From a virus, in the IMG/VR virus record IMGVR_UViG_3300030380_001620, positions 1-31,344 of that record: a stretch of 31,344 nt of DNA; one strand, 5' to 3'. The notes under the pieces are model-generated. The model was not told the DNA's origin, did no database searches, and saw only the letters and a list, made by a program, of their open reading frames with translations. The translations under genes were made by a program, and so were the position numbers. Positions 2,923-7,060 of the stretch are shown piece after piece. Numbering within the stretch: the stretch's first letter is position 1; every line of letters begins with the position of its first letter.

Positions 2923-4422
2923 ATGGGCTTGTTTGATTTTCTAATACCACAAAGACAAGCCGATATAGAATTAGTTAAGCGTGGTAGGAAAAGACGCAGA
3001 AGTTACGCTGGAGCTAATCAGGGTAGATTATTTAGTGATTTTATTGGTTCTAGTTCATCAGCAGATAGTGAGTTACGTGCAAGCTTACCTGTTTTACGTA
3101 ATAGAAGCCGTGATTTAGCTAGAAATAATGAATATGCAAAAAGATTTCTTAACCTAATTAGAACCAATGTAGTCGGTGAAAAAGGCTTTACGCTACAGGT
3201 TAGAGCTACAAATGATGATAGATCATTAGACGCTGCTGGTAATACAATTCTAGAAAATGCGTTCAAGGCTTGGGGAAGATTAGGTAATTGTGAAGTAAGT
3301 GGGCGTATGTCTTGGTTGGATTGCCAAAGATACGTTTGTGAGACATTAGCGCGTGATGGTGAAGTATTTATAAAGTTTGTGCAAAATAGACGATTTAGAG
3401 ACGGTTTTGCATTGCAGTTTATTGAAGCTGAACTCATTGACCAAGATAAAAATGGTAAAGCAGCAAATGGTAACCAGATTAGAATGGGTGTGGAGCTAGA
3501 TGAATATCATAAGCCAGTAGCATATTATGTTCTTACGGGACATCCAAATGATACATTGAATTTTGCAGTAGGCGCTGAACGCAAGCATATACGTGTACCA
3601 GCCAATGAAATATTACATTTATTCATACAGAATAGGATGCACCAGACTAGAGGTGAACCGTTTATGTCTCCAGCAATAGCATCATTAAAGATGTTGCATG
3701 GATATAGAGAAGCTGAGTTAGTTGCTGCTAGGGCTGCGGCTGCTAAGTTTGGTATCATTACCACTCCAGATGGTGATGAGTTTGTTGGTGATGATGAAAC
3801 AGATGATGAAGTGCCTGTAATTGATATGGCTCCAGCTTCTGTTTATCAGTTACCATCGGGGCATGATTTTAAGATGATTGATCCAGCCCATCCAACTTCT
3901 GCATTCGCTGAATTTGAACAGGCCGTATTACGCGGTATCGCGTCTGGTTTAAACGTATCTTATACAAGCTTATCAAATGATCTAAAGGGTGTTTCTTATA
4001 GTTCTATACGTCAAGGCACAATTGAGGAACGCGATCATTACAAAACACTACAATCATATATAATAGAACACTTTTGTGAGCCAGTATTTAGAAACTGGTT
4101 AGGAAGTGCTTTGTCTTTTGGTGATATACCAATACCAATATCTAAGTATGATAAATTTGCTGATAACTTGCATTTCCGTGGCCGTGGCTTTGCTTGGGTT
4201 GATCCACAAAGAGAAATTAATGCTCACGTTACAGCATTATCTAACGGTATTGTAAGCATGAATGATATAGCCGCAAATTATGGAAGGGATGTAGAAGAAT
4301 TATTTAGCCAGATAGCTTCTGACAAAGAAATGGCTGAAAGATATGGCCTATCGACTGCATTTGAACCCTTTGGGGCAAAAGCACCTGTTCAACCAGAAGT
4401 AAGTGACGCAGATGAGCTATAA
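2923..4422 (+). CDS. Portal protein, lambda GpB type
   Basis: The 499-residue protein forms the dodecameric ring at the head vertex through which DNA enters and to which the tail attaches. Its N terminus has the lambda-portal pattern of a basic stretch and then LRNRSRDLARNNEYAKRFLN (about residues 58-77), followed by NVVGEKGFTLQ and later a GVSYSSIRQGTIEERDHYK segment (about 363-381), all characteristic of lambda-type portals. It starts one base after the upstream stop, and its 3' end overlaps the capsid fusion gene by 11 bases, so the two are probably translationally coupled. Length is typical (about 500-530). Confidence 0.97.
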   Translation: MGLFDFLIPQRQADIELVKRGRKRRRSYAGANQGRLFSDFIGSSSSADSELRASLPVLRNRSRDLARNNEYAKRFLNLIRTNVVGEKGFTLQVRATNDDRSLDAAGNTILENAFKAWGRLGNCEVSGRMSWLDCQRYVCETLARDGEVFIKFVQNRRFRDGFALQFIEAELIDQDKNGKAANGNQIRMGVELDEYHKPVAYYVLTGHPNDTLNFAVGAERKHIRVPANEILHLFIQNRMHQTRGEPFMSPAIASLKMLHGYREAELVAARAAAAKFGIITTPDGDEFVGDDETDDEVPVIDMAPASVYQLPSGHDFKMIDPAHPTSAFAEFEQAVLRGIASGLNVSYTSLSNDLKGVSYSSIRQGTIEERDHYKTLQSYIIEHFCEPVFRNWLGSALSFGDIPIPISKYDKFADNLHFRGRGFAWVDPQREINAHVTALSNGIVSMNDIAANYGRDVEELFSQIASDKEMAERYGLSTAFEPFGAKAPVQPEVSDADEL

Positions 4423-7060
4423 ACCAACAGAAGGAATGATAACAGAAGCCCAGCGCGGTTTAGATTGGCGATCTGAGCATGGTAGAGGTGGTACGGCTGT
4501 AGGAATTGCCCGTGCTAGGGATATTGTTAGTGGTAAAAATCTATCAGAAGATACTGTTTTACGCATGTTTTCATTTTTTAGTCGGCATGAAGTCGATAAG
4601 CAAGCGGAAGGATTTGAGCAAGGTGAAGAAGGTTACCCATCTAACGGACGTATAGCTTGGGCTTTATGGGGCGGTAATGCTGGGTTTACTTGGTCAAAGA
4701 ATATACGGGATAGAATTAAAAAAGATGAAACTAGGGCTGTAACTGATGCAGTTCGTAAAGGTTTAGCTAAGAAAGCAGAAGATCATAATGAAGATGTTGG
4801 TAATGTTGCGTCTAAACGTACTACCACTAGAACTCTAATATCGGTATTTAATCGCGGTATTGGTGCATATAAGACTAATCCACAAAGCGTAAGACCTAGC
4901 GTTAAATCGCCTGAACAATGGGCTTATGCCCGTGTCAACAGTTATTTATATGCTTTGCGGAACGGTAAATTTAGAAGTGGCAAGCATGATACTGATTTAC
5001 TTCCATCAGGTCATCCGATGTCATCAAAGAAAAGGGATGTTACAATGGATGAAAAAAATGATACAATTGATCTAAATGAAAAAGGGTCTGAGCCAATGAA
5101 AAAGCGTCATGTTATAAACATAGAAGAAACTGAAGAAGCTTATATTGTTACTTTTGCCAAGCCTATGAATGAGCAAAGTGTAGAAGAAGCTCCGACAGAA
5201 GAAGAAAGATTTGTACGTGAAGATATGGAAAAACGCGGCCATTACATGGATGAAAAGGCCGTGGATATTGATGAAAGACGTGTAAAAGTCGGTGTATCTA
5301 CAGAAGAACCTGTAGAAAGATCATTTGGAATGGAAGTTATAGACCATTCCAGTGATAGTATGAATTTAGACTTTCTGAATAGTGGTCGCGCTCCATTATT
5401 ACTTGACCATGATATGGAAAAGCAAATTGGCGTGATTGAAGGAGTTGAACTTGATGAAGATGCTCGGCGTCTACGAGCAATGGTTCGTTTTGGAAAAGGT
5501 GGACTAGCTTCAGAAGTGTTCAATGATGTTACTGATGGCATCAGACAAAACATCAGTGTAGGCTATCGAATTGATGGCCGAATAAAACGTGATGATGACC
5601 CTGAAGAATACTACAGGGTTGCTACCACACCAATGGAAATTAGTATTGTTAGTGTACCAGCAGATCAGTCAAGTCTTGTTGGTGTCGGGCGATCAGTTCC
5701 AGCAGAACCCTTAACTCAAACATCTGAAGGAGATGAAGTTATGACTGAAGAAGTCAAAAATAACATCGATCTTGACGCGGTTAAAGCTGATGCAGTTCGA
5801 GCCGCAAGAAAGAACGATGCTGAAATCTTGGCATTAGCAGCCAAGCATAATAAACGCGACTTAGGTAATGAAGCAATTGCAAGCGGTATGTCAGTAGACC
5901 AATTCCGTGGTAATTTGCTTGATGCTATTGGTGATAAGCCACTAGACATTGCACCAGCACAAGTTGACGCTCCAGTAAAAGAGCAAAAGAGTTATTCTCT
6001 TGGTAGAATGATCCAAGCTCAAATTACTGGTGATTGGCGTAAGGCTGGGTACGAGCGTGAAATCAATGATGAAATAGCCACACGTGTTGGCCGCGATGCA
6101 GAAGGTGTTTATGTGCCTGATTTTGCATGGGGGCAACGAGGGCCATTATCAACAGCAGCTACTGGCGGTTCAGGTGCAGAAGTTGTATTTGATGATTTCG
6201 TACCAACTGAACACCGTAGTGATATGTTCATTGAGGCGCTACGTGCTAGACAAGTTCTAGGCGGTCTAGGAACAACTTACCTAAGTGGTCTAACCAACAG
6301 AATAAAAATGCCAAAACTAGCAACTGGAGCTAATGCTGCATTTGTAGAAGAATTAGCAGATGTTGGCGATGGTGCTGGTACAGACGGTGGAGTTACATTG
6401 CAGCCAAGAACAATGGGTGCATTTGTTGATATGTCACGTTTGTTAATGTTGGAAAGTGTACCAGCTATTGAGCAAATAATCAGAAATGACTTACTTGCTT
6501 CAGCAGCCGACAGAACTGAATTTTATGCAATTCAGGGTTCTGGTTCAGGTGGTCAACCAACAGGTATTTTAAATACATCTGGCGTAAATGATCTAGACAT
6601 TTCATCAGGTACTGATGTTGATAGCCTTACATGGGCTGACATCATCAACCTAGTGAAGTTGGTTGAAGAAGATAATGGAATAGTCAATGGTAATGCTGCT
6701 GGCTTCCTATCACATCCAGCAGTTAAAGCTAAACTAGCTTCAACAGCTAAAGTATCTTCAACTGATAGCGTTATGATCTTGAATGACCCGTGGAATAACC
6801 TTTACGGCTATCCAATGGGCTTCACATCAAACGTACCAACAACACTAGATCCAGGTGATGGTGGTAATGACGCTTCAGCATTGATCTTTGGTGACTTTAG
6901 CCAGTTGATGATTGCTCAGTTTGGCGCTCCAAGCATCTTAGTTGATCCATTCAGTGGTTCAAAAGCTGGAACTGTGAGAATGGTTCTACACGCTGAACTA
7001 GACGTAGGTGTGAGAAACGCTGTAAGCTTTGGTATCACTAATGAGGTATCAGTAGCTTAA
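4412..7060 (+). CDS. Fusion of accessory domains, prohead protease, scaffold and HK97-fold major capsid protein
   Basis: One open frame of 882 codons holds what are usually two or three genes. Residues 1-~105 form a domain with RSEHGRGGTAVGIARARDI and RIAWALWGG; residues ~140-210 form another with GAYKTNPQSVRPSVKSPEQW. I recognise both as phage domains of unclear function. Residues ~285-420 are an HK97-type prohead protease: LLLDHD with His333 and NISVGY with Ser382 fit the catalytic His/Ser. Residues ~444-515 are a charged helical scaffold (delta) region. From ~517 to the end is an HK97-fold capsid protein (YSLGRMIQAQITGDW, GVYVPDFAWG, GQPTGILN). ATG 4412 is preferred to GTG 4403. Internal ribosome-binding sites at 5031 and 5727 could release protease and capsid modules separately. 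A GC hairpin follows the gene. Confidence 0.93.
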   Translation: MSYKPTEGMITEAQRGLDWRSEHGRGGTAVGIARARDIVSGKNLSEDTVLRMFSFFSRHEVDKQAEGFEQGEEGYPSNGRIAWALWGGNAGFTWSKNIRDRIKKDETRAVTDAVRKGLAKKAEDHNEDVGNVASKRTTTRTLISVFNRGIGAYKTNPQSVRPSVKSPEQWAYARVNSYLYALRNGKFRSGKHDTDLLPSGHPMSSKKRDVTMDEKNDTIDLNEKGSEPMKKRHVINIEETEEAYIVTFAKPMNEQSVEEAPTEEERFVREDMEKRGHYMDEKAVDIDERRVKVGVSTEEPVERSFGMEVIDHSSDSMNLDFLNSGRAPLLLDHDMEKQIGVIEGVELDEDARRLRAMVRFGKGGLASEVFNDVTDGIRQNISVGYRIDGRIKRDDDPEEYYRVATTPMEISIVSVPADQSSLVGVGRSVPAEPLTQTSEGDEVMTEEVKNNIDLDAVKADAVRAARKNDAEILALAAKHNKRDLGNEAIASGMSVDQFRGNLLDAIGDKPLDIAPAQVDAPVKEQKSYSLGRMIQAQITGDWRKAGYEREINDEIATRVGRDAEGVYVPDFAWGQRGPLSTAATGGSGAEVVFDDFVPTEHRSDMFIEALRARQVLGGLGTTYLSGLTNRIKMPKLATGANAAFVEELADVGDGAGTDGGVTLQPRTMGAFVDMSRLLMLESVPAIEQIIRNDLLASAADRTEFYAIQGSGSGGQPTGILNTSGVNDLDISSGTDVDSLTWADIINLVKLVEEDNGIVNGNAAGFLSHPAVKAKLASTAKVSSTDSVMILNDPWNNLYGYPMGFTSNVPTTLDPGDGGNDASALIFGDFSQLMIAQFGAPSILVDPFSGSKAGTVRMVLHAELDVGVRNAVSFGITNEVSVA
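5031..5047 (+). promoter_or_regulatory. Internal ribosome-binding site and in-frame ATG ahead of the protease module
   Basis: AAAGGG (5031-5036) lies 8 bases before ATG 5045, which is in frame with the capsid fusion and sits between the N-terminal accessory domains and the protease domain. It could start a shorter protease-capsid product. This is a plausible but untested internal start. Confidence 0.4.
5727..5743 (+). promoter_or_regulatory. Strong internal Shine-Dalgarno and in-frame ATG for separate scaffold-capsid product
   Basis: AAGGAG (5727-5732) stands 8 bases before ATG 5741, ideal spacing. The ATG is in frame with the fusion gene and falls exactly at the protease/scaffold junction (codon 444). 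Initiation here would give a 439-residue delta-plus-capsid protein, the normal size of a stand-alone HK97-type capsid precursor. This would supply many capsid copies per protease copy. Confidence 0.6.

Follow-up and report, generated by a model that had tools for sequence, protein, structure and literature searches.

Nested in-frame start sites in a prohead protease/major capsid fusion gene point to an independently made capsid precursor

The capsid gene of a virus related to the CRP-822-type roseophages is very likely a set of nested genes sharing one frame, in which the capsid precursor would be made independently and the protease fusion would serve as its companion. The gene lies in a stretch of 31,344 nucleotides (IMG/VR record IMGVR_UViG_3300030380_001620), hereafter the window. 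Two internal start codons preceded by Shine-Dalgarno (SD) sequences are found in the frame of the fusion, one ahead of the protease (site 1) and one at the protease/scaffold border (site 2). Comparison with relatives makes it very probable that site 2 also gives the shell protein as a product of its own. An HK97-type shell needs about 415 capsid subunits and few proteases, whereas a fusion gene gives one protease per subunit; one short, conserved DNA element, an internal start, would be enough to resolve this stoichiometry puzzle.

Results

A protease-capsid fusion preceded by an N-terminal module

Searches against Pfam and PHROGs gave the order of modules in the fusion as N-module, S78 prohead protease, scaffold and HK97 capsid (Table 1). 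Residues 282-882 match phrog_617 ('major head protein', a protease-capsid fusion; E 2.2e-101), and since an S78 domain is followed by an HK97-fold capsid domain in one frame, the gene encodes a prohead protease/major capsid fusion. The identity of the shell domain as an HK97-fold major capsid protein is further given by TIGR01554 (74.9 bits, cut-off 27.5) together with Pfam and Foldseek. The fusion scored 132.5 bits over residues 287-517 against the NCBIfam model NF045541, for which the curated cut-off is 525 bits: it is related to this family and lies outside that narrow model. Genes for the terminase and a lambda-type portal are located upstream and head-tail connector genes downstream. This terminase-portal-capsid-connector order is common to the window and the CRP-822-type roseophages, which are closely related (capsid ORF identity of 82% with CRP-406 and 68% with CRP-821). 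In the description of these phages (PMC12629253), the gene is named only 'capsid' and the protease is not mentioned.

Table 1. Features of the fusion gene (window positions; residues numbered from GTG 4403).
Feature	Coordinates	Strand	Description
Full-length fusion	4412..7060	+	Open frame; 882 aa from ATG 4412 (885 aa from GTG 4403)
N-module	4412..5044	+	Basic (pI 9.9), predicted all-helical; phrog_2859-like plus DUF5824
Site 1 Shine-Dalgarno, AAAGGG	5031..5036	+	Spacer 5037-5044, 8 bases to ATG 5045
Candidate nested start 1, Met215	5045..5047	+	Predicted protease-capsid product, 671 aa; positional homologue of the SD-ATG/GTG starts of relatives
Alternative nested start 1, Met232	5096..5098	+	Preceded at 9 bases by a weaker AAAGGG; corresponds to the Met-KKRHVINIEET starts in L004/L007/L008
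S78 prohead protease domain, aa 328-426	5384..5680	+	Pfam PF04586, E 2.3e-9
Site 2 Shine-Dalgarno, AAGGAG	5727..5732	+	Spacer 5733-5740, 8 bases to ATG 5741
Putative nested start 2, Met447	5741..5743	+	Predicted stand-alone capsid precursor, 439 aa, 46.3 kDa; in frame with 4403-7060
Predicted helical scaffold (delta) domain, aa ~447-590	5741..6172	+	End approximate; AlphaFold helices, precursor residues 11-116
HK97-fold capsid domain, aa 603-876	6209..7030	+	Pfam PF05065, E 2e-29

In relatives, the homologous ORFs open at MSYKPTEGM, which corresponds to ATG 4412; this codon, rather than GTG 4403, is therefore the probable start of the fusion. ATG 4412 overlaps the end of the portal gene (stop TAA 4420-4422). 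Anti-SD pairing is weak at both codons (0.2 at GTG 4403 and -3.4 at ATG 4412), and translation of the long product probably depends, for its start, on coupling with the portal gene.

At the protease/scaffold border the DNA is conserved rather than the peptide

A preliminary description of the window had reported, from its letters, an AAGGAG eight bases ahead of ATG 5741 with 439 residues to the stop, and an AAAGGG eight bases ahead of ATG 5045 before the protease. Both sets of positions are exact and both starts are in frame. The claim that ATG 5741 marks the border between protease and scaffold also holds: the domain scan places Met447 between the S78 and HK97-fold domains, and Met215 ahead of the protease. 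The anti-SD pairing at ATG 5741 (-9.7 kcal/mol) ranks second among the 204 internal in-frame ATGs of the window's genes, which, judged on the window alone, is suggestive. Local folding around this codon (-11.6 kcal/mol over 71 nt) does not make it especially open.

The two sites were compared across 245 related sequences drawn from IMG/VR and from phage records. Of the 109 dereplicated relatives, 108 carry in the post-protease window an in-frame ATG that an SD core precedes by 5-11 nt, and 57 of 72 do so in the pre-protease window, as compared with 254 of 2887 control windows taken from the same ORFs (8.8%). Counted per ATG, the share carrying an SD core was 86% after the protease, 73% before it and 11% in the controls. 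All 199 sequences in which the protease-end motif was recognised have an SD-paired start codon 5-28 codons past the first such motif, and in nearly all of them it is an ATG 13-20 codons on; for one (L034), the scan picked a TTG, and the aligned ATG has a GAAAGGA SD. In the 60 relatives with all three sites, the median SD energies were -6.7 at the ORF start and -8.8 at each of sites 1 and 2.

Each alignment column was also compared with synonymous recoding. The Met447 column was the most extreme of the 911 (observed -8.74, null -3.60, z -16.4), the second most extreme group being the start of the ORF itself, and the other conserved Met columns had no comparable SD excess. In a more conservative version, in which the ATG was chosen blind to the SD and one context was kept per cluster of divergent peptides, site 2 retained a z of -6.6 and site 1 a z of -3.9. 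As the relatives share ancestry and are not independent, these z-scores overstate significance; they serve to order the sites and are not true probabilities.

The way in which site 2 varies is informative. Its core is spelled GAA GGA GAT, AAG GAG, CAA AGG AGT, ATA GAG GTA and in other ways, and as it occurs in all three codon phases, selection on the peptide does not explain it. Glutamates at the SD position are encoded by GAG in 80% of cases versus 34% elsewhere, and in the relative L077 the start codon is GTG (GTG makes up 18% of Val codons overall). The preliminary description had named free variation of the sites between relatives as the outcome that would speak against them; on the contrary, SD core, spacing and start codon are kept, and it is the residues flanking the nested sites that vary freely. 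At the level of the sequences compared, what is conserved at site 2 is the DNA rather than the peptide, and the comparison makes an overwhelming case that the site is not due to chance. Because the sites survive phase changes, ATG-to-GTG changes and the insertion of a domain (see below), nested initiation is the best explanation for site 2, where it would yield a stand-alone capsid precursor.

A less certain start ahead of the protease

By the window alone, site 1 would appear unexceptional: anti-SD pairing is -5.8 at ATG 5045 (19th of the 204 internal in-frame ATGs) and -4.7 at ATG 5096. Its position is conserved among relatives, and this comparison provides good support, with less certainty than for site 2. 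The start codon is GTG in L034 and in the L040 group, and site 1 is not clear in some clades. ATG 5096 was considered as the true site in place of ATG 5045. However, Met215, in its SSKKRDVT-M context, matches the SSKRGED-M and SSKRNEV-M starts of relatives, and these local SSK contexts favour ATG 5045 as the positional homologue. Nested initiation at site 1 is thus likely from the comparison, at either ATG 5045 or ATG 5096.

In CRP-823 (L084), near locus position 4680, one extra T in CAATTT parts the frame of the N-module from that of the protease-capsid, and site 1 is intact downstream. The break may be natural or may come from the assembly; since one misassembled base could have produced it, and since five isolates out of the seven in that study had not been purified (PMC12629253), we count it as weak support for site 1.

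Variation of the N-module and its linker

The N-module matches phrog_2859 at residues 8-112 (PHROGs) and DUF5824 at residues 134-196 (Pfam), and its model (pLDDT 83) gave no significant PDB match. Its high pI contrasts with the acidic protease and capsid, both with a pI of about 4.5. CRP-406 (L082) is without a large part of it (window residues 116-217). In one subclade (L053, L054, L056, L058 and L059, also L055, L057 and L080), a cupredoxin-like insert of ~100 residues lies in the linker between N-module and protease and ends ...YFCLNHSGMGSVINI; the SD-ATG is rebuilt directly after it, as AGGAGTGCAGAC ATG. In CRP-811 (L085, residues 144-194) and the relatives L166-L245, a Hva1_TUDOR-like domain (PF11160) stands in place of the DUF5824 region, and the border before it carries an SD-ATG proper to this type of linker (MTDEVRAEP or MTEEVRAEP). 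One further relative, L061 (IMGVR_UViG_3300017813_000038), was considered as a natural case lacking the N-module and was dropped: reverse-oriented tail genes abut a truncated capsid fusion, and the contig is chimeric.

Border starts in distant fusions

A Met with an SD at the border is also found in distant protease-capsid fusions: VP882 (M185, -9.4), R4C (M189, -9.5), PAJU2 (M197, -10.8), the actinophages Yasuo and ScienceWizSam (M241, -10.7 in the latter), as well as phiHAP-1, Persinger, PPpW-3, Mica, Bas97, Arya, RcSaxon and Nocturne116. The border SD of Alexa is weak (-4.3). The Synechococcus phages S-CBS3 (L086) and S-LBS1 (L258) keep the border Met and have no SD, which possibly reflects a weaker SD dependence in cyanobacteria. 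Gene order and homology identify the R4C ORF (L257) as a protease-capsid fusion, and the match of the Pfam S78 model to it falls short of the E 0.01 threshold; the paper on the R4C structure (PMC10276861, PDB 8gta) describes the shell only and mentions no protease.

Over 15 lineages of these fusions, the positional test for border starts gave p 1.3e-7, and the stricter synonymous-recoding test on the same lineages was weak (Fisher p 0.039), because EG or EE residues at the border already encode an SD-like sequence. From these two values, the border start is probably general beyond the marine family. A split case comes from the Moraxella phage Mcat3, a relative of PAJU2, in which protease and capsid have a CDS each, the two sharing an ATGA overlap. 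The start of its capsid CDS aligns within one residue with the internal start Met197 of PAJU2; hence the internal start corresponds to the start of the capsid gene where the genes are split.

We lean towards a broader reading, somewhat better than even in our judgement, in which S78-protease/HK97-capsid fusions throughout the tailed phages would, as a general rule, have their capsid precursor made by nested translation. The annotated 'fusion' genes would then be overlapping genes, with an unannotated internal capsid ORF giving the main product and the fusion acting as a carrier that delivers a measured dose of protease; in the marine clade, the second nested start would add a third product, with the basic N-module.

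Products and proposed mechanism

In the model of the 439-residue precursor (pLDDT 68, moderate confidence), a helical scaffold domain precedes an HK97 fold. Its best PDB match is the R4C capsid 8gta (E 1.3e-15), with many HK97 matches besides (Foldseek). The scaffold boundary was placed from the HK97-fold matches and from the start of the R4C capsid chain, which as deposited covers residues 362-629 of the 629-residue ORF.

For initiation itself, the product ratio, co-assembly, and cleavage and its order, we infer the following scheme. Ribosomes starting at ATG 4412 would make the full fusion, those starting at ATG 5045 or 5096 the protease-capsid product, and those starting at ATG 5741 the capsid precursor alone, with its N-terminal helical scaffold domain. 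The stand-alone precursor would be the main shell subunit and the longer products would be minor; by way of their own capsid domain, the latter would take the protease, facing inward, into the procapsid, and the protease would then remove scaffold, protease and N-module. Unequal amounts may be expected from the pairing energies at the fusion's own start as against that at ATG 5741.

Available space is consistent with such a mixture. The R4C shell is T=7 with 415 copies (PMC10276861). With this copy number and an assumed procapsid interior radius of 17-22 nm, 415 subunits each carrying a 26.2-kDa protease, a 23.6-kDa N-module and the scaffold would occupy ~74-160% of the cavity; in physical terms, a mixture in which long products are few therefore makes sense. 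An internal promoter in place of an internal ribosome-binding site was considered and set aside, as promoter-like sites are not in excess within the gene, so that the nesting would operate by translation and not by transcription. A search of Rfam for known RNA elements gave no match.

Alternative explanations

Several other readings of the border sites were weighed. They could be relics of ancestral protease-then-capsid genes that lost the intervening stop, no longer initiating, with the capsid produced only by autoproteolysis of the fusion. The split arrangement of Mcat3 fits this idea, as does the proposal that the capsid polyprotein of the PAJU2 type is cleaved autocatalytically (cited in PMC8306868); but unused sites would decay, and here SD, spacing and start codon are kept in all but one of the dereplicated relatives while the flanks have been replaced, the SD moving between codon phases and being rebuilt after an insertion. 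We regard this reading as improbable. Also at odds with the data is the proposal that the border Met and its acidic neighbours owe their conservation to selection on the protein, for instance as the cleavage site of the protease itself, with the SD resemblance following from the codons: K-E, E-E or E-D does precede the Met in many contexts, and the synonymous test is weak in distant fusions, yet QRSDP, IRGAE, KGDVT and ERNDD share no peptide and keep the SD, the site glutamates are biased towards GAG, and in the cases seen Val replaces Met only as GTG. This makes a protein feature very improbable. Pausing of ribosomes at SD-like sequences has been suggested for mRNAs of bacteria, and an element that sits at domain borders could be a translational pause between folding domains rather than a start site. 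A pause, however, does not need a start codon at fixed spacing, whereas the ATG stands at the expected distance, it is exchanged for GTG, and other conserved Met columns are without a comparable SD excess; we give this the least credence of all.

Doubt is greater about site 1. Site 2 could be real while site 1 is unused in the window, leaving two products only, or the middle product could start elsewhere, at ATG 5096. The moderate pairing at both codons, the modest SD-blind z and the clades without a clear site 1 would fit; the frequency of SD-ATG in relatives relative to controls and the exchange of ATG for GTG argue against it, as does the retention of site 1 in CRP-823, with the possibility of an assembly error. 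We consider this unlikely, though it deserves appreciable weight, and it is compatible with nested initiation as the best explanation for site 2.

Discussion

If nested initiation is true, the annotated starts and masses of 'major capsid' proteins would be wrong for the main product in many phage records. The nested start is a testable prediction for the isolated phages CRP-406, R4C, VP882 and PAJU2, including the delivery of the protease into the procapsid.

Protease-capsid fusions as such are already known (NF045541, PHROG 617, the 'prohead protease fused capsid protein' of PAJU2, actinophages and Nocturne116). As far as surveyed, the internal start is neither annotated in the records of these fusions nor mentioned in their literature, and no description of an internal capsid start in S78 fusions was found in a literature search that covered subscription titles poorly, and which is therefore weak evidence of absence. 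The window fusion has the identical protease-scaffold-capsid order, and a border start is present in most of the known fusions examined; it differs from them by the N-module with its second nested start.

In phage lambda, an in-frame start near the 3' part of the protease gene C gives the shorter and more abundant assembly protein Nu3. These nested genes go back to Shaw and Murialdo (1980, as cited in PMC8508860). The likeness lies in an in-frame internal start with its own ribosome-binding site at the protease/scaffold border, conserved here. However, the nested product of lambda is the scaffold, the capsid protein E being separate, whereas that of the window would comprise scaffold and capsid, and the second nested start before the protease is a feature of the window and not of C/Nu3. 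The preliminary description had seen the gene as similar to C/Nu3 but extended to the capsid, and the nested frame does extend across the capsid domain as far as the stop at 7060. With the capsid inside the nested product and a further nested start ahead of the protease, the gene would work like C/Nu3 in a different arrangement.

The gene also resembles gp4/gp5 of HK97, with an S78-type protease and a capsid precursor bearing an N-terminal helical scaffold, the 439-residue product being organised like gp5; in HK97, protease and capsid are two genes, whereas the window has one frame with nested starts. In Gifsy-2, a single gene reportedly covers protease, a central scaffold-like region and capsid, and the protease is ClpP-like, versus S78 in the window fusion. 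This tripartite capsid gene is attributed to Effantin et al. (2010, Virology 402:355, as cited in PMC8538268).

The same principle of a protease-scaffold fusion and a shorter scaffold product sharing one C-terminus is found in UL26/UL26.5 of herpesviruses and I/Z of phage Mu. UL26.5 is made from a nested transcript, and in both systems the capsid protein lies outside the nested frame.
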